This document shows, piece by piece, positions 2,055 to 19,708 of a stretch of DNA of 21,210 nt; positions within the stretch are counted from its first letter, which is position 1, and every line of letters starts with the position of its first letter. The stretch covers positions 1-21,210 of IMG/VR virus record IMGVR_UViG_3300044825_001644. One strand, 5' to 3'. Source of the stretch: a virus. The position numbers were made by a program, and so were the translations under genes. Under the pieces are notes generated by a model. It worked only from the letters and a program-made list of their open reading frames with translations. It searched no databases and was not told the DNA's origin.

Positions 2055-2606
2055 ATGCCGGTATATGACTCCACATCAGCCTTCCTGAAGCAGCAGCTCA
2101 AGAACTTTAAGCAGGCCAGCAAAGCCGACAAGGTGCTGAGGGCAGCTGCTCTTTATGCTGCTCCGGCTGTCCAGGATAGAGTGCAGGATAGCGGAAGAAA
2201 GTCAGATGGTTCAGAACTTCCTCCTTATGACTCTGGGCGTACAATAGGCAAAGGAAGCCCTATAAGCAGAAAGTTTGGTGAAATAGCGAGTCAGAAGCAG
2301 GTCAAAGCAAGAATGCGAGCCTTTGGTGATACAGATGAGTTCTATGGCTATGCTGACTTTCGTAGGTCATTAGGCAGACAGACTGCTTACATGGACTTGA
2401 CATTAACCGGAGACATGTGGGCAAGCTGGAAGCCAGTGCCAATAAGCAATACAGCCTATGGTGTTACATTCACTACAACAGAACAGGCAAAAGTTGCTGG
2501 GTATCTTGAGGAACGTTTCGGTGCTATTTTTGAGCTGTCAGACAAGGAGCTGGAGCAATCACTCCAGATTATCAATCGCCTGGCTACTGAATTACTGAGT
2601 AAATGA
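2055..2606 (+). CDS. Putative head-tail connector / tail completion protein (gp10-like)
   Basis: A 183-residue protein. It has an N-terminal helical part (SAFLKQQLKNFKQASKADKVLRAAALYAAPAVQDRV), a basic, glycine- and serine-rich middle (GRKSDGSELPPYDSGRTIGKGS, shown here broken by context) and a beta-rich end (YMDLTLTGDMWASWK). Small basic proteins with an N-terminal helix that multimerises and a LTGxMxxSW-like segment are typical of HK97 gp10-like and phage virion morphogenesis families that seal the connector to the tail. The call is by pattern and context: it heads a rightward operon that includes scaffold and capsid candidates and is joined by an ATGA overlap to another small neck candidate. 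Confidence 0.5.
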   Translation: MPVYDSTSAFLKQQLKNFKQASKADKVLRAAALYAAPAVQDRVQDSGRKSDGSELPPYDSGRTIGKGSPISRKFGEIASQKQVKARMRAFGDTDEFYGYADFRRSLGRQTAYMDLTLTGDMWASWKPVPISNTAYGVTFTTTEQAKVAGYLEERFGAIFELSDKELEQSLQIINRLATELLSK

Positions 2607-3088
2607 TTGTTACAAAGGTTACTGTTGAATCTGCGCTGAAGGCTCTCTGCGAGAACCTGGCAGGCACATTCGTTAATAACATGCTCAACTATGGCGAAGC
2701 TGTGGAGAGCATTGTTGAAGGCAGTGCTGGCAACTATGTAACTAAGGATGGAAACACTTATTGCGCTGTCAATGATACTTATCCTCTGGTAGTGTTCTTT
2801 GTCCGGGAATCAGCCTCAGTAGAGGCAGCACCAGCCGGAGGCAGAGCCAACAGCCTGCTCAGGACAGTGAACTTTAAACTGATAGCCAATTCAACTTTTG
2901 AAAATGCCGAATTTGGCATTGCCACAATAATCAACAGAACAAAAGGTATAACCTATGCCGGTACGGATTACAACTCGAAAGCAATTGCAAGCCAATACTT
3001 CGGACTTGCAGAACGCAACTTTGAGACCTACTTCTTCAGCATCGACTTCTCGGTTACCGAGAGGATTAGCTGTGAAGTTGCCTGTTGA
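2603..3088 (+). CDS. Putative neck / tail terminator protein
   Basis: A 161-residue protein beginning in an ATGA overlap with the previous stop. The composition is mixed alpha/beta, with strands such as YPLVVFFVRESASV, LRTVNFKLIANS and TYFFSIDFSVTERI ending close to the C-terminus. A helix-strand fold of this size following a gp10-like gene is the usual position of the tail terminator, which caps the tail tube at the head. I do not recognise a specific family signature, so the role is inferred from position and size only. Its last 17 bases overlap the start of the glycosyltransferase gene. Confidence 0.4.
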   Translation: MIVTKVTVESALKALCENLAGTFVNNMLNYGEAVESIVEGSAGNYVTKDGNTYCAVNDTYPLVVFFVRESASVEAAPAGGRANSLLRTVNFKLIANSTFENAEFGIATIINRTKGITYAGTDYNSKAIASQYFGLAERNFETYFFSIDFSVTERISCEVAC

Positions 3089-3734
3089 TGCTATCTACTT
3101 TATAAGTCTGCAAAAAGCCAGTCAGCGCAGAAATAGACTACTGCAATTTATGAGGGGCATTACCGATGTTCATGGTAATGATCCTCAGTGGCACAAAGCC
3201 AATGATGGTAATAAGCCAGGTCATAAAGTTGACAATCGCCTAAAAAAGTCAAGGAACAGGCCATCACTATCAATTGGTGAGATAGGCTGCTGTGCCTCAC
3301 ATCGGGAAGTGTGGACAAAAATTGTCCAAAATGGGCATCAGTCTGCGCTTGTTCTGGAAGATGATGCCCGATTCGACATTGACAAGCTCATCAATCTGGT
3401 AACTAATTGGAACAAATTGCCGGAGTTTGACTTCCTGCACTTAGGCTGGAACTATTACGCTGGCTATAAGGAGCAGACCATTGAGAAGGTAGAGATACCT
3501 GAGATTCCTGACTTGTGGAAAGGTGATGGAATGTGGCTGACTCATGCCTACATCATTACTAATCATTGCGCTCTGGATTGGCTGTCTAAAACACAAGTGC
3601 AGAATAATGGACTTGATGCCATGACAGCAGACATGCAGAGTGATTGCAATGCCTATGGCTTTAAGCCACCAATTGCCTACCAGGAGCGAGGCACTTCAGG
3701 AATGCTCCGGTCTCAAATTCATCATACAGGGTAA
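3072..3734 (+). CDS. GT25-family glycosyltransferase (LPS-type)
   Basis: The protein (220 residues from the GTG at 3072) shows the GT25 pattern in order: IYFISLQKASQRRNRL at residues 8-23, GEIGCCASHREVW at 69-81, and ALVLEDDARF at 92-101, where EDD is the metal/sugar-nucleotide site. Family members transfer galactose or related sugars during lipopolysaccharide synthesis, and some modify proteins. The frame is open much further upstream but that part overlaps the previous gene; GTG 3072 (MKLPVDA...) overlaps only 17 bases and puts the first strand at the expected place. TTG 3078 is an alternative. Its place inside a head/neck gene cluster suggests late expression and perhaps modification of virion proteins, though host surface sugars remain possible. 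Confidence 0.85.
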   Translation: MKLPVDAIYFISLQKASQRRNRLLQFMRGITDVHGNDPQWHKANDGNKPGHKVDNRLKKSRNRPSLSIGEIGCCASHREVWTKIVQNGHQSALVLEDDARFDIDKLINLVTNWNKLPEFDFLHLGWNYYAGYKEQTIEKVEIPEIPDLWKGDGMWLTHAYIITNHCALDWLSKTQVQNNGLDAMTADMQSDCNAYGFKPPIAYQERGTSGMLRSQIHHTG

Positions 3735-8946: not shown

Positions 8947-8959
8947 AGTGCAAAACCTT

Positions 8960-9394
8960 ATGCCCGGATTTTTTTTTGATTTTCAATTGCCGGATGTGAT
9001 TAAGCCTAACCCAGACTTTAAGAAGTATGTCGGCTCGGAAGATAACTTCCAGAAGGCAGTTGCTCGTTATCTTGACACATTAGGAGCATTCTGGTTTCAT
9101 TGCCCAAATGGAGGCAGTCGGAATGCCATAGAAGCAAGCAAGCTAAAAGGCATGGGCGTAAAGGCTGGCATACCTGACTGCCTGATATTAGATCAGCGCA
9201 AAGGCTACTCCGGGATGGCAATTGAGCTGAAGGTAGGCTACAACAAGCCATCAGAACAGCAGTTGTCAATATTTGACAAGTTAGTTTCTGCCAACTGGCT
9301 GGTGCTTGTGTCCTGGTCTCTTGATGAAGTCATAACTATGATTGATTACTACTATGAAAATAAATCAGCAAGGATTCTGGGAGAATCCGACTAA
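8960..9394 (+). CDS. VRR-NUC domain nuclease
   Basis: From ATG 8960 the product has 144 residues; a GTG at 8948 lies almost on the promoter and is less likely. The VRR-NUC signature is complete: E27 with Q31 in the first helix (SEDNFQKAVARYLDTLG), FHCPNGGSRN at 46-55, GxKAGIPDCLI with D73, and AIELKV with E89 and K91. This is the PD-(D/E)xK nuclease site of phage and Fan1-type enzymes that act on branched or replication-intermediate DNA. In phages the small stand-alone form is usually beside replication genes, as here. The last 41 bases overlap the methyltransferase gene. A T9 run at 8969-8977 encodes FFF near the start. Confidence 0.93.
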   Translation: MPGFFFDFQLPDVIKPNPDFKKYVGSEDNFQKAVARYLDTLGAFWFHCPNGGSRNAIEASKLKGMGVKAGIPDCLILDQRKGYSGMAIELKVGYNKPSEQQLSIFDKLVSANWLVLVSWSLDEVITMIDYYYENKSARILGESD

Positions 9395-11579: not shown

Positions 11580-13472
11580 ATGATGACAGTTACCTACTTT
11601 GACAATTTTCGCACTGTAAATGATCCTAAGTTTTTCCCTGTTGACATGGTGCTGGAGCGTATTAAGAATGGCGCATCAAAAGAACTCATTGAACAACTTA
11701 GAGCAATAACTGACCCTGAGCAGCAAAAGGATTTTAAGCTAAACAGACTGCCACTAATCTGCTTCTCCGGTCAATTCACCAGGAGAGCAGCAGTAGCCTT
11801 CAAGAAAGCCTCTGGATTAGCCATTATGGATTGGGATGATGTGCAGGCTGAAAATCTGCGTGATCTTCAGACAATCATAATTTCTGAGCCTTACACCTAT
11901 GCCTGCTGGGTATCTCCCAGAGGAGGACTGAAAGCACTCATCAGGATAGCCGATGCAGAAAAATATAAAGAACAATATGAAGCCCTACTTGACTATTTCA
12001 ATGGTCTGACTATTGATTATTGCCAGGCAGACAAGGCTAACAAGGACATTGCCAGAGGATGCTTTGAAAGCTATGATCCTGACTTGTACATAAACCGAGA
12101 GGCTAAGCCATTTCAGTACTACATCAAGCATGAGCGCATGGAAATGCCCACATACGAAAGTAAAGTGGAGCTTATCCCTCGCATCCTAAAGTGGACAGCA
12201 TCAAAAAACCAATATTTCCAGGATGGTCAGCGAAATCACTTTATCCTGTGCTTTGCCGGAGCTTGTTGCCGCTTTGGAATTGACCAATATGATTGCCTTG
12301 CTTTTTGCGATAACCAATTTCTGGCTAATGATACTTCCTTTAGCCGGAAGGAATGCGAGCAAACAATAGCCAATGCCTACCGATTCTGGCAGAATCAATT
12401 TGGAACTGCTGAGTTCAATTCTGGTAAAGTAGTGGACACAAAAACTCTGATGGAGATAGATGTTGCGCCACCTGCTGAACTATTTGACACTACCCAGCCA
12501 GCAAAGGATGTTGTCTATGGCTCATCAGTAATTGACCGGGCAATTGACTTGCTTGAAAATGGGCTACCATACATTGAAGGAATAGGCATTCCAATGCTGG
12601 ATGACTTATTCAAGTTCAGGAGAGGAGAGATTACACTTCTATCCGGTCATGGTAATCATGGAAAATCCAGCATAATGAAATACATGATGCTTTGCCATGC
12701 TGCTATCTATGGCCGAAAGTTTGCCATATTCCCACCAGAGGACAATCCAGCTGAATTATTCTACCATGACCTGGTTGAGATTCTGCTGGGCATGGAATGT
12801 AATCCTAAAAATCCTTATGCACCTACAAAAGCCAAGTATGAACGTGCTTTTAGATGGGTAAGCGACCACTTCTTTTACATTTATCCTGAAACTGAAAGCC
12901 CTACACCTGCTTACATTAAACAGCGATTCCTTGAGTTAATCATAAAAGAAAAGGTAGATGGCTGCATCATTGACCCATTCAACCAGATGGACAATGATAT
13001 TAGCCGTGCCGGTGGTCGAGATGACCAATACCTAAGCATTGTCCTGGGAGACTTTGCCAGATTTGCTGCACAGAACAATGTTTATTTTTTCATTCTAAGC
13101 CATCCGAAAGGTGGAGGTAAAAAGACAAACGGAGACAATTATCCATGCCCAGATGTCTATGATTTAGCCGGAGGCGCAATGTGGAACAATAAAATGTGGA
13201 ATATTTTAATCTATCACCGACCACTATTTTACAGCACTCCACAAGACCCTGCATGTGAGCTACATGCAAAAAAAATAAAGCGAAAGGAAGTAGGAAAACG
13301 TGGATTTATTGAATTTGAATATAAGTATCAGAAGCGCAGATTTCTTTTTAACGGCAACGATCCAATGGAGCGCATTTTGGGAGACTTAAACTTAAATGCT
13401 TACTTGCCGACTCCGGTAGCAATTGCTCCTAATTTAGAAGATACACTTCCATTCGATGACTGCCCATTCTAA
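11580..13472 (+). CDS. Primase-helicase: VirE/BT4734-like N-terminus with DnaB-like C-terminus
   Basis: A protein of 630 residues. The N-terminal 200 residues match the VirE N-terminal (BT4734-like) pattern: LPLICFSGQFTRRAAVAF, SGLAIMDWDDV with the acidic DxDD-like cluster, then YACWVSPRGGLKALIRI and DIARGCFESYDPDLY. Such domains occur in Bacteroidota mobile elements as primase-like modules. A middle section (GQRNHFILCFAGACCRFGI) suggests a primase C-terminal domain. The C-terminal part is a RecA-fold helicase: Walker A GHGNHGKSS near residues 355-363 and Walker B GCIIDPFNQM near 461. It ends in EDTLPFDDCPF, an SSB-like acidic tip. Expected job: priming and unwinding at the phage fork. ATG 11580 and 11583 are both possible; AACCAATAA precedes them. 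Confidence 0.85.
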   Translation: MMTVTYFDNFRTVNDPKFFPVDMVLERIKNGASKELIEQLRAITDPEQQKDFKLNRLPLICFSGQFTRRAAVAFKKASGLAIMDWDDVQAENLRDLQTIIISEPYTYACWVSPRGGLKALIRIADAEKYKEQYEALLDYFNGLTIDYCQADKANKDIARGCFESYDPDLYINREAKPFQYYIKHERMEMPTYESKVELIPRILKWTASKNQYFQDGQRNHFILCFAGACCRFGIDQYDCLAFCDNQFLANDTSFSRKECEQTIANAYRFWQNQFGTAEFNSGKVVDTKTLMEIDVAPPAELFDTTQPAKDVVYGSSVIDRAIDLLENGLPYIEGIGIPMLDDLFKFRRGEITLLSGHGNHGKSSIMKYMMLCHAAIYGRKFAIFPPEDNPAELFYHDLVEILLGMECNPKNPYAPTKAKYERAFRWVSDHFFYIYPETESPTPAYIKQRFLELIIKEKVDGCIIDPFNQMDNDISRAGGRDDQYLSIVLGDFARFAAQNNVYFFILSHPKGGGKKTNGDNYPCPDVYDLAGGAMWNNKMWNILIYHRPLFYSTPQDPACELHAKKIKRKEVGKRGFIEFEYKYQKRRFLFNGNDPMERILGDLNLNAYLPTPVAIAPNLEDTLPFDDCPF

Positions 13473-15705: not shown

Positions 15706-16090
15706 ATGCTACCCTATCTGCCTGCCATTGCCAAGCTGTCCGGCAGCTGTGTTTCTATACACTCCGCCTGGCGATTATGGCAGGGGCATAACGGTCAACA
15801 TCGTAAAGCCTGGAGTCAATGTGCAAGGGCAGCAGTTGCTAAGCATAGGCGCAGATGGGTTTGTCGAGATTGACCTTGAAGGCTTACCGGAAGGATTTTT
15901 TAATCCTTGGGGTGGGCAATACACGATAAGTTATTCAGACCCTGATTTGCCAAATCAAGTGCTTACATTTACTGCGCAGGATGGTCAGCAATATGACAGC
16001 ATCTGTCTGTCATTTATCCAGAGCATCAGCAATCAGGAGACAGTAATCGCAATAATTAATCCTATCAATAATGACCAACCAGAACTATGA
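15686..16090 (+). CDS. Cys-rich N-terminus, beta-rich protein, 134 aa (probable virion)
   Basis: The first 20 residues hold five cysteines (MALCCNKCYPICLPLPSCP), followed by a beta-rich domain (GITVNIVKPGVNVQGQQLL, FVEIDLEGLPEGF, YTISYSDPDLPNQVLTF). The order, between the terminase and the tail genes, suggests a head-tail or tail structural role. The cysteines may bind a metal or form disulfides. No family recognised. It overlaps the terminase end by 20 bases and is linked to the next gene by ATGA (16087-16090). Confidence 0.6.
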   Translation: MALCCNKCYPICLPLPSCPAAVFLYTPPGDYGRGITVNIVKPGVNVQGQQLLSIGADGFVEIDLEGLPEGFFNPWGGQYTISYSDPDLPNQVLTFTAQDGQQYDSICLSFIQSISNQETVIAIINPINNDQPEL

Positions 16091-16482
16091 TTTTGACGCA
16101 AGCTGTGGAGGTAAGCGCAGAGGCTGTTGCCTTATCGAGCTACCACACGATTCCGAGCCTTCTATTGCTCACCTTGGTAGCACTGATCAGTGCGACTTTC
16201 TCTTTGTTTATGGATTACTTTCTGGAGGATCACCCACTTGGGCAGTGGTATCTGTCTCAGATTCAGAAGCTGCCCATGAACTGGGCGAAGCCACTCGGTG
16301 AATGCCCTTTCTGCTCAGGTGCATGGCAGTTTCTGCTTATCTCCTGGGCAATGTTTGACTACCCTTTCTATCTATGTTCAATATTTTTAGGCGTAAATCA
16401 CATGCTCCTGCTCCTGCTCAACAAGTGGCAGAAGAAGCTCCTTTACAAGCAGAAGGTAGCAGAGTACTTTACAGGGGAGTAG
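16087..16482 (+). CDS. Membrane protein with CPFC motif, 131 aa
   Basis: Two to three membrane segments are visible: IPSLLLLTLVALISATFSLF (about residues 22-41), FLLISWAMFDYPFYLCSIFL (around 82-101) and a final hydrophobic piece (HMLLLLLN). Between the first two is ECPFCSGAWQ, a CxxC-x3-W arrangement seen in small phage and bacterial membrane proteins of the DUF1360 type. The final 109 bases overlap the next gene in a different frame. A shorter shadow frame at 16071-16301 is ruled out by this membrane pattern and the ATGA join at 16087. The role is unknown; location beside tail genes would fit a membrane-active late protein. Confidence 0.65.
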   Translation: MILTQAVEVSAEAVALSSYHTIPSLLLLTLVALISATFSLFMDYFLEDHPLGQWYLSQIQKLPMNWAKPLGECPFCSGAWQFLLISWAMFDYPFYLCSIFLGVNHMLLLLLNKWQKKLLYKQKVAEYFTGE

Positions 16483-17126
16483 CACCGAAAGACCGGTGGG
16501 ATCAGATTGAGTTTGCCTTTACCTCCGGTGGAGTCAATTACTTCAAATTCTCAGCTGAGGTTAATGTGCCATTCCAGAGGGCAGTTGCTGCCAGAGACAT
16601 ATTCACCGAGGAGCTATGGCAAATCAACCCAGACTACCTGAGAGGCTGGAACAATGGCCTGATTAACCTTCTGATGGACAAGAAAAAGAAGGATGATAAG
16701 AAGCTGTATGAGATAGGTGTGCTTGCATCCCGGCTAAAGGAGCAGATGGAGATGTCGGTTAGCTTCCTGAGGCAGCTGAAGCTGGCAACAGTGCTTTACT
16801 TTGACGAGCAAGAGAATCCACTTGACTACCAATATCCATACAACAAGCAGAAGCTCGACCACTGGATGAAGCATAATGATGTGCAGGGTTTTTTTTTGAA
16901 TCTGCCGGAGTACGCCTTTCTTCCCTCTTTGACAGAATACAGTCAGAATTTCCCGACTTATTTGCAAGCAGAAACTCTGCAAAGCCTAAACAACCTGAAG
17001 CACATTATTGGACTTCAATTATCAGACAGCACAGACAGAGATTTGATGAGCAGTTTAGAATCGCAGGTGGAGATGCTCAAAGACTTAAATTCCTGGTCGA
17101 AAGGCCAATCTATGAGTATTACTTGA
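16374..17126 (+). CDS. Putative tail assembly protein, 250 aa, frame-0 product
   Basis: The frame begins MFNIFRRKSHAPAPAQQVAEE, a basic start and an Ala/Pro-rich stretch, then a folded part (WDQIEFAFTSGGVNYFKFS, LWQINPDYLRGWNNGLINLLMD) and a long charged helix (KKKKDDKKLYEIGVLASRLKEQMEM). It precedes the tape measure gene, the usual position of the tail assembly chaperones. A T9 run at 16889-16897 follows codon 172. After it this frame runs 76 more codons to 17126, and the -1 frame also stays open to 17179. No family is recognised. The start overlaps the membrane-protein gene by 109 bases, which is unusually long. Confidence 0.6.
   Translation: MFNIFRRKSHAPAPAQQVAEEAPLQAEGSRVLYRGVAPKDRWDQIEFAFTSGGVNYFKFSAEVNVPFQRAVAARDIFTEELWQINPDYLRGWNNGLINLLMDKKKKDDKKLYEIGVLASRLKEQMEMSVSFLRQLKLATVLYFDEQENPLDYQYPYNKQKLDHWMKHNDVQGFFLNLPEYAFLPSLTEYSQNFPTYLQAETLQSLNNLKHIIGLQLSDSTDRDLMSSLESQVEMLKDLNSWSKGQSMSIT
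16889..16897 (+). other. T9 slip site, candidate -1 frameshift
   Basis: Nine T's following CAG GGT contain the repeated form T_TTT_TTT, on which a ribosome or RNA polymerase can slip by one base. A -1 shift joins the first 174 residues of the 16374 gene to a frame that stays open to 17179. No clear downstream stimulator hairpin was seen. Confidence 0.45.
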
Positions 17127-17179
17127 TTGCCTCTGCCTATATTGCGGAGCAAAAGAAACGTAGGACAACTAAAGGGTAA
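16895..17179 (+). CDS. -1 frame extension of tail assembly gene (268-aa fusion if shifted)
   Basis: This is the frame read after a -1 slip at the T9 run, 94 codons to TAA 17177-17179. It has no ATG or other convincing start of its own, so it must be reached by slippage or by joining the upstream frame in a corrected sequence. The peptide looks like real protein: LSSLFDRIQSEFPDLFASR, HYWTSIIRQHRQRFDEQF and PIYEYYLIASAYIAEQKKRR. In lambda and many siphoviruses the tail chaperone gene before the tape measure gene makes a long form by -1 frameshifting (G and GT). Against this, the zero frame continues for 76 codons, where classic cases stop soon after the slip, so a miscounted homopolymer is the main rival. 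Confidence 0.45.
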   Translation, partial: FESAGVRLSSLFDRIQSEFPDLFASRNSAKPKQPEAHYWTSIIRQHRQRFDEQFRIAGGDAQRLKFLVERPIYEYYLIASAYIAEQKKRRTTKG

Positions 17180-17209
17180 GTGTTTTTTTCAGAGTAAGGT
17201 TAGTCAAAG

Positions 17210-17235
17210 AGCCACTGAATTTCGGTGGCTTTTTT
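17210..17235 (+). terminator. Intrinsic terminator before tape measure gene
   Basis: AGCCACTG (17210-17217) pairs with CGGTGGCT (17223-17230), one T-G wobble, across a 5-base loop AATTT, followed by a run of T's to 17235. It ends the terminase/tail assembly transcript just before the next promoter. Confidence 0.8.
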
Positions 17236-17241
17236 AATTGC

Positions 17242-17249
17242 TATCTTTG
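17242..17249 (+). promoter_or_regulatory. Promoter -7 element TATCTTTG for tape measure gene
   Basis: TATCTTTG matches TAnnTTTG, 17 bases before ATG 17267. The best -33 candidate is TTTC (17220-17223), 18 bases upstream, inside the terminator hairpin. The predicted leader is only about 12 bases. Confidence 0.6.
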
Positions 17250-17266: not shown

Positions 17267-19708
17267 ATGGCACTCTCCAATAACGAAATCAAAATTAAAT
17301 ATGTCATTGATGACACCGAGCTGCGGAAAGCAGCCACCAGCTTTGACAACCTGACCAAAGAGGAGCAGGATGCCATTAACTCAATGAAGAAATTCAATAC
17401 TGAGTTAAGCAATACAGGAGCAAAGGCCACCGAAACAGGCAATAAAGTAAAGGGAGCATTTGACAAAGCCCAGGGAGGAATTGATAACTTTATCAAAGGA
17501 CTTGGCCCAGTTGGCCCGGCAATAGCCGGAGCATTTGCAGCAACAAGCATAATCAGCTTTGGTAAGGCAGTCTTTGATGTTACTGCCAACTTTGAGAAGC
17601 TGGCTGCTGTACTTAAGAACACTCTGGGTAGTGGAGCGCAGGCATCACTTGCATTGGAGAGCATCAAGGAGTTTGCCAAGACAACTCCATTCAGCGTTCA
17701 GGAGCTTACAGCCAGCTTTGTTAAGCTCGCCAATCAGGGATTCAGGCCAACAACTGAGCAGATGCGAAAGCTGGGTGATCTTGCATCCAGCACTGGTAAG
17801 CAATTTGACCAACTAACAGAAGCAATAATAGATGCCCAAGTCGGAGAGTTTGAAAGGCTTAAGGAGTTCGGCATCCGAGCGCAAAAGCAAGGAGACCAGG
17901 TTACATTCACATTTAAAGGTGTCCAGACTCAGGTTAAATTCACCAATGAAGCAATTAGAGAGTACATCACATCACTTGGCGATTACAATGGTGTAGCTGG
18001 CTCAGCTGCTGCTGTATCGGAGACACTCGGAGGTAAGGTCAATAACTTAGGCGATGCCTGGGATAACTTCCTAAACTCAATAGGCACTTTACTAAAACCT
18101 GTTCTGGCTGGTGCTTTGTCCACTACCGCTGAGGTTATGGATAAGATTAATGCACTGTTCAAATTAGGCACAACTACATCTCAGCAGCTCACAGACATTG
18201 AGGTAGCCTCTTTTCAGGCATATCAGAAAGAAGTTACTAAAATGACTGATGACATGCTTGATGCGCAGCTGAAGCGCAATGACCAAGCTATTAAAGAACT
18301 ATCAGCAAAGGCAGCTGAGTTGGGCAAAAAACTTCAAGGAGTACCAAGTATTGCCGGATTTGACCCTGCTTTAGGTACTCGCCAGGAGCTTGAGGCAGTA
18401 CAGAAAGGATTAGCCATGATTAAGGGCGAAAATGCTGCCATAACCGAGCAGATTAATGACAGGCAAGCTAACATAACCAAGTATGAGGAGCTAATGGCAA
18501 GGCTTAGAAATGAAGCCACCAAGGATAAGGAAGCTCAACAAAAGATTGATGAGAAAAACTATCAGTTAAAGCTAAAACAGCTTCAGATTGAGAAGGAAAT
18601 CCTGATTTTACAAGCTCAATTGCGTGGAGAAGGCCCAGCAGGTGCTGAAAAAGTAATTGCAGAAAAAATTTATCAATTAAAAAAGGATAATCTCGGCAAA
18701 ATCAAAGACCTGACTGAACAGGAGGTTACGGCTGCTGAATTAGGAGCGCAAGCAAAAGCAAAAGCATTTGAAGAGGCATCTCAAAAAGAGAAAATGACTA
18801 CTAAAAATGGCCTTGATTATCTAAGACAGGAAACTGACAAGAATTATGCAAAGGGTCAGGAAGCCTTAGACAAGGACATGAAGCAGCGCATGGATAAAAC
18901 AAAGGCCATGCATGAGTTAGAATTGGAAGAACTTAGAAAGCAAGAGGAATTAAAGCAGGAAATCAGAAATAAAGCAGTTGAATTAGGACAAACAGTTGTT
19001 ACCGGTGCATTTGACCTATACCAGGCACAGCTGAACAATGAGATGTCATCACTCCAAAAACGATACGATGAGGAAATCAGGCTGGCTGATGGCAACAAGC
19101 AGAAGATTACTGAAATCAATGAGCGCAAGGCAGCATCCGAGAGAGACATTAAGCTAAAGCAATTTAGAGCCGAGCAACTTAATGCTGTTGCCAATATCTG
19201 GTTTCAGGCTGCGCCTCAGATTGTCAAGTATGGTGCAAATCCTGCGACTATTCCATTAGCTGTCCTAGTTGCATCCATTGCAGCTGCTCAGACTGGATTT
19301 GTTGCTGCTCAACCAGTGCCTGAGTTCGCTGAAGGTACTAAGGGCAAGCCATTCAAAGGTGGTAAGGCCATTGTAGGTGAACGTGGAGTTGAGAAAGTGG
19401 TAACCGAATCCGGCAAGGTGTACTTCACTCCACCGACTGCTACCCTGGTTGACCTACCTAAAGGCTCACAGGTAATTCCTAACCATGCTTTGAGCAAGCA
19501 AGAGTTGTTTATGGCAAGCCACTATGCCAGCAGAAGCAACAGCACAGCATCTCCGGTAGTGGGAGAATTAAGGGAGCTTGGAAGCATCATTAGAGCATTG
19601 CCCATCACTCAGCTTAACATGGATGAGAGGGGCTTTGAGAAGTACATCAGAACACCGAGGCGCACAACCAAGGTGCTAAATAATCGCTTTCGTTCAGGCG
19701 AGTCATAG
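17267..19708 (+). CDS. Tail tape measure protein, 813 aa
   Basis: The true start is ATG 17267 (MALSNNEIKIKYVIDDTEL); the frame is open from 17225 but that start lies in the terminator. A hydrophobic patch at about residues 78-102 (GPVGPAIAGAFAATSIISFG) is followed by the TP901-type tape measure core: TTPFSVQELTASFVKLANQG, STGKQFDQLTEAIIDAQVG and FERLKEFGIRAQKQGD. A long coiled-coil middle (Lys/Glu/Gln-rich, about 370-600) and the usual C-terminus GGKAIVGERGVEKVV, FTPPTATLVDLPKGSQVIPN complete it. The protein sets tail length and passes DNA into the cell. At about 1.5 angstrom per residue, the tail would be roughly 120 nm, which supports a siphovirus. Confidence 0.93.
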   Translation: MALSNNEIKIKYVIDDTELRKAATSFDNLTKEEQDAINSMKKFNTELSNTGAKATETGNKVKGAFDKAQGGIDNFIKGLGPVGPAIAGAFAATSIISFGKAVFDVTANFEKLAAVLKNTLGSGAQASLALESIKEFAKTTPFSVQELTASFVKLANQGFRPTTEQMRKLGDLASSTGKQFDQLTEAIIDAQVGEFERLKEFGIRAQKQGDQVTFTFKGVQTQVKFTNEAIREYITSLGDYNGVAGSAAAVSETLGGKVNNLGDAWDNFLNSIGTLLKPVLAGALSTTAEVMDKINALFKLGTTTSQQLTDIEVASFQAYQKEVTKMTDDMLDAQLKRNDQAIKELSAKAAELGKKLQGVPSIAGFDPALGTRQELEAVQKGLAMIKGENAAITEQINDRQANITKYEELMARLRNEATKDKEAQQKIDEKNYQLKLKQLQIEKEILILQAQLRGEGPAGAEKVIAEKIYQLKKDNLGKIKDLTEQEVTAAELGAQAKAKAFEEASQKEKMTTKNGLDYLRQETDKNYAKGQEALDKDMKQRMDKTKAMHELELEELRKQEELKQEIRNKAVELGQTVVTGAFDLYQAQLNNEMSSLQKRYDEEIRLADGNKQKITEINERKAASERDIKLKQFRAEQLNAVANIWFQAAPQIVKYGANPATIPLAVLVASIAAAQTGFVAAQPVPEFAEGTKGKPFKGGKAIVGERGVEKVVTESGKVYFTPPTATLVDLPKGSQVIPNHALSKQELFMASHYASRSNSTASPVVGELRELGSIIRALPITQLNMDERGFEKYIRTPRRTTKVLNNRFRSGES

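Follow-up and report, generated by a model that had tools for sequence, protein, structure and literature searches.

A tail-chaperone-like phage gene with a conserved poly-T slip site and two C-terminal tails selected in overlapping frames

In the virus sequence studied here, an IMG/VR record of 21,210 bases (referred to as a whole as the window), a run of nine T's is found in the gene that immediately precedes the tape measure gene, by which tail length is determined, and two reading frames remain open beyond the run. Is this a single frame, apparently broken by an error in the assembly, or is one N-terminal start continued into two different C-termini, each of which matters to the phage? Both readings were raised by an earlier note on this DNA, which compared the location to that of the tail chaperone pair made by -1 frameshifting in lambda-type phages, and found it odd that the zero frame does not stop soon after the slip.

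The features of the region are collected in Table 1. The zero frame (16374–17126, + strand) encodes a protein of 250 aa: 174 common residues are followed by 76 codons, including the stop codon at 17124–17126. The -1 frame is uninterrupted from the T run until its own stop at 17177–17179, and its tail features two conserved motifs, EFxDLF and VE(R/K)PxYEYY.

Table 1. Features of the slip site region and of the sequences downstream; positions refer to the window.
Feature	Position	Strand	Evidence
N (N-terminal region common to both products)	16374..16888	+	174 aa through FF; open reading frame; 59–100% aa identity in relatives
T9 slippery run	16889..16897	+	T9 in 125/128 haplotypes; the other 3 have an in-register T7
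C1 (zero-frame C-terminal tail)	16898..17126	+	75 codons and stop; open in 110/110 tested relatives; dNN/dSN; simulation
C2 (-1 frame C-terminal tail)	16898..17179	+	93 codons and stop; conserved motifs; dNN/dNS
Intrinsic-terminator-like hairpin followed by T's	17208..17238	+	106/109 distinct intergenic regions
TATCTTTG, matching the TAnnTTTG box	17242..17249	+	pattern in 101/109 distinct intergenic regions
Tape measure protein gene	17267..19708	+	Pfam and PHROG matches

The -1 frame had been described as lacking any start of its own, and this is borne out by its relatives: in 121 haplotypes, the first ATG, GTG or TTG of the -1 tail is found at codon 68 or later, and in 117 of them the -1 frame does not remain open for more than 4 codons ahead of the T run. 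C2 must therefore be entered from the zero frame, and an independent start, having no start codon available before codon 68, was rejected. A TTG within the YEYYLI sequence is a nominal start codon, located very late in the frame. At its other end, the chaperone-like gene overlaps by 109 bases (16374–16482), in a different frame, the end of ORF 16087–16482; the 131 aa encoded by the latter include a CPFCSGAW motif and are membrane-bound in appearance, and no match to them was found in database searches.

Relatives were gathered by scanning viral contigs from many metagenomes, both with the common N-terminal part and with the -1 tail: they form a group of freshwater phages, where 128 distinct haplotypes cover the slip site, while two further contigs end before it. 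The run measures exactly nine T's in 125 of the 128, with N-part identities reaching down to about 60%; among these are two near-identical relatives (L002, L003), assembled independently from other metagenomes. In the zero frame the run is read as GGT TTT TTT TTG, so that its first seven T's constitute the -1 heptamer T_TTT_TTT. The three remaining haplotypes (L288, L291, L300) carry seven T's in the same register, GAT TTT TTT ATT, and keep both tails. The heptamer, in zero-frame register, is thus present in all 128 (in L268 after allowing for a one-base indel upstream of the slip site), and its first T is unchanged even where the codon is GAT instead of GGT. Where tails are complete, they extend for 69–87 codons in the zero frame and for 92–104 in the -1 frame, with the exceptions of L004 and L268. 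Both tails are still present in deep relatives, where identity has fallen to about 60% in N and about 40–50% in C2.

The selection acting on the two frames was evaluated by sorting substitutions according to their effect in either frame and comparing the rates of the resulting classes, with an OLGenie-like approach implemented in our own script; the earlier note had proposed such a comparison in related phages, and its outcome is purifying selection on both frames. For 24 representatives, dNN/dSN is 0.31 in the zero frame (95% interval 0.19–0.47; 0.28–0.31 across estimates) and dNN/dNS is 0.38 in the -1 frame (0.25–0.59; 0.38–0.40 across estimates), with values of 0.93 and 1.09 for the control +1 frame within the overlap. 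Controls were also run on the N domain, where a false -1 frame scores 1.39 and a false +1 frame 0.69: the latter shows the spread of the method, and values near 0.7 are accordingly not readable as selection. For 13 representatives of deep clades, ratios are 0.58 (0.41–0.85) in the zero frame and 0.57 (0.38–0.87) in the -1 frame, with controls of 1.01 and 0.93. The rate of substitutions synonymous in the zero frame is about 1.5 in the N domain and about fourfold lower, near 0.4, within the overlap. The -1 peptide, whose lack of conservation would have removed the second product, is conserved both by its ratio and by its motifs.

The openness of the zero frame was also evaluated by simulation, on a tree of 110 leaves and 6.3 substitutions per site, constraining the -1 frame alone. 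Over 600 runs, zero-frame stops before codon 72 were found in about 101 of the 110 leaves, with a minimum of 50, while none is observed in the 110 actual sequences; as the constraint is uniform and indels are not modelled, the number is a rough one, but the gap is large. Low ratios in both frames, controls near 1, and the contrast between simulated and observed stops indicate that both C-termini are selected, and that about 75 codons are truly dual coding. Two long and different tails on one 174-residue start, as the earlier note had envisaged, are thus supported.

These data bear on two other explanations of the locus. According to the first, raised by the earlier note itself, the true frame is continuous and a base was gained or lost in the homopolymer during assembly. 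Homopolymers are indeed error prone, and one relative, L004, carries the C2 domain in the zero frame (L004:939–1250), thus providing the single uninterrupted frame proposed as a sign of such an error. It is the only haplotype to do so: in this contig of 4.2 kb, an N part similar to that of the window meets a C part similar to that of L240; both parts share the stretch where they join, and L240 has one base less. L004 looks chimeric, either by assembly or as a true recombinant of two phage types. Nine T's recurring in independent assemblies, including the near-identical ones, and selection on both frames, which an error would not leave, exclude this explanation for any practical purpose: the T9 run with two open frames before the tape measure gene is real. 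The other explanation holds that only C2 matters, the openness of the zero frame being a fortuitous effect of the C2 codons, and C1 a passive extension. Single sequences could not show selection on C1, because after random synonymous recoding of C2 the zero frame of each stays open with a probability of 0.02–0.14; besides, the usual zero-frame stop falls within the codons for the conserved YEYYLI motif of C2. Yet dNN/dSN is well below 1 where control frames are near 1, and not one of the 600 simulation runs was free of zero-frame stops. A passive C1 is therefore strongly disfavoured, and very improbable.

The nature of the protein was approached from its surroundings. The next gene, with its ATG at 17267, matches Pfam TMP_3 (E=2.4e-9, just under the gathering score) and PHROG 5062 (E=2e-44), and is confirmed as the tape measure protein gene. 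A -1 slip site in the gene that immediately precedes the tape measure gene is a hallmark of tail chaperones (PMC5009743). The searches of both products suggested by the earlier note, run against 50,697 phage records, Pfam, PHROGs, NCBIfam and PDB sequences, returned nothing, known tail chaperone families in the latter four collections included. AlphaFold models, for which C2 was modelled alone, apart from N, are of low confidence (pLDDT 50 and 63), with both tails weakly predicted to be helical; no significant match was obtained by Foldseek from these models, which are too poor for fold comparison. Since similarity to known tail chaperones was found neither in sequence nor in fold, the assignment of a function rests on architecture. 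Of the lambda-type chaperone pair anticipated by the earlier note, position, conserved slip site and two selected C-termini stand, and a chaperone role is what we infer from the layout of the genes.

In most relatives, two elements are kept in the intergenic region ahead of the tape measure gene, a terminator-like hairpin and a TAnnTTTG box (Table 1); their conservation suggests that the tape measure gene may be transcribed separately from the chaperone-like gene. The hairpin is not listed by a generic scan. The box, which matches the Bacteroidota -7 promoter box, and a BT4734-like_N domain, found in 11580–13472, point to Bacteroidota as the probable host. Genome contigs, when scanned with the N domain, did not contain any relative; when scanned with TerL, they returned only distant terminases, with no clear host.

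Elsewhere in the window, a second run of nine T's (8969–8977) occurs early in a VRR-NUC-like nuclease gene (8948–9394), where it is read as GGA TTT TTT TTT GAT. It is found again in many relatives, while others encode GIIFE or GFYFE, so that it is not strictly conserved; slippage there would at once stop or shift the frame. A further overlap, of 134 bases, would be present between ORF 2955–3734, glycosyltransferase-like by eye, and the preceding ORF 2603–3088, if the first start of the former is used.

What the sequences show is the slip site, how it is conserved, and that both frames are selected; slippage itself, its ribosomal nature, its rate and the chaperone role are inferred. The most probable reading, in which we place good though not full confidence, is that of a two-form protein, similar to tail assembly chaperones, produced by a -1 ribosomal slip and selected for both its C-termini. 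Most ribosomes would stay in frame across the T run, producing N + C1 (250 aa), while some would slip back by one base on U_UUU_UUU, where both tRNA-Phe could fully re-pair in the -1 frame, and produce N + C2 (about 268 aa). The same ~229 nt encode C1 and C2 in two frames, and selection maintains each of them. If the analogy with lambda gpG/gpGT holds, N + C1 would be the major form, coating the tape measure protein, and N + C2 a rarer form, recruiting the tail tube.

Two alternatives concern the mechanism and the function. The slip might be made by RNA polymerase rather than by the ribosome: one extra U in the transcript would lead to N + C2, a faithful T9 transcript to N + C1, and a T8 transcript to a short protein, stopping at once at a TGA. 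Transcriptional slippage usually takes place at homopolymers of at least 8 (PMC3711429), a length reached at the slip site in 125 of the 128 haplotypes, and the GA after the run does form a +1-frame TGA in most relatives. Conserved RNA structures, looked for downstream of the slip site as stimulators, were not found, which would also suit a slipping polymerase; as to upstream SD-like stimulators, a purine-rich GG is present directly at the T run, and not 6–17 nt before it. Such stimulators, on the other hand, are not always found in prokaryotes (PMC4066793). Ribosomal slippage is favoured by the three T7 haplotypes, which fall below the length usual for the polymerase, yet hold the exact heptamer in register and keep both tails. 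The immediate +1 stop is also missing in L280 and L284, where T9 is followed by A, as it is in the T7 group; the idea that T8 transcripts supply a third, conserved product was therefore rejected. Slippage of the polymerase is unlikely as the main mechanism, with a chance that deserves some weight, and is possible as a contributor on T9. As to function, the gene might encode, instead of a chaperone, some other protein, of the tail or structural, whose C-terminus comes in two forms. The missing homology to chaperones would fit this, as would the conserved terminator and promoter-like box in the intergenic region before the tape measure gene; the position, combined with the -1 slip site, is nonetheless the hallmark of chaperones (PMC5009743), and a different function appears rather unlikely.

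Under the preferred reading, that of a chaperone-like protein made in two forms by ribosomal slippage, the locus has some practical implications. It would provide a candidate tail chaperone for a phage group, probably of Bacteroidota, with no annotated one. It is a natural case of long dual coding, with more than 100 divergent relatives, useful for the study of overlapping genes. It also carries a warning for annotation, since C2 would escape gene callers, whose output would be the 250-aa product.

Programmed transcriptional realignment at an A/T homopolymer, as in Shigella mxiE, is one of the known systems to be compared with this locus. There, too, a second open frame comes after a homopolymer at least 8 long (PMC3711429); the T7 relatives, in contrast, hold a ribosomal heptamer, against the need for a long homopolymer. 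Lambda gpG/gpGT is similar in its architecture: a gene immediately preceding that of the tape measure, with a common N-terminus and a -1 slip site leading to an extended second form, is widely kept among its relatives too (PMC5009743), although no sequence similarity to gpG/gpGT was found. The lambda slip site, however, is near the 3' end of g, while here 75 further conserved residues follow in the zero frame. In the SEA-PHAGES training data, made of actinophage chaperones, slip site and zero-frame stop are on average 26 nt apart (PMC10885494); here the stretch after the T run, counted through the zero-frame stop, measures 229 nt, a departure from a nearness which is typical of tail chaperones, but not strictly defining. 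A long dual-coded chaperone frameshift was not found described in the open-access literature searched, and precedents may exist elsewhere. P2 E/E+E' shares with this locus a poly-T slip site, a -1 extension and a tail gene before the tape measure gene, and slip sites of P2-like phages are T6G and T7G; E' reaches only 37 nt back into E (PMC3931495), compared with an overlap of about 229 nt here, with both frames selected. In known tail chaperone frameshifts, a domain is added to a protein which would otherwise stop soon after the slip. Here the unshifted product also ends in a long, conserved tail, read from the same bases, so that the shift would swap the C-termini: on balance, it seems likely that these ~229 nt encode two separately functional C-terminal domains, chosen by frameshifting and carried on one tail-chaperone N-terminus. 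The two forms would then differ by an exchange of domains, unlike those of lambda and P2, where one domain is added.
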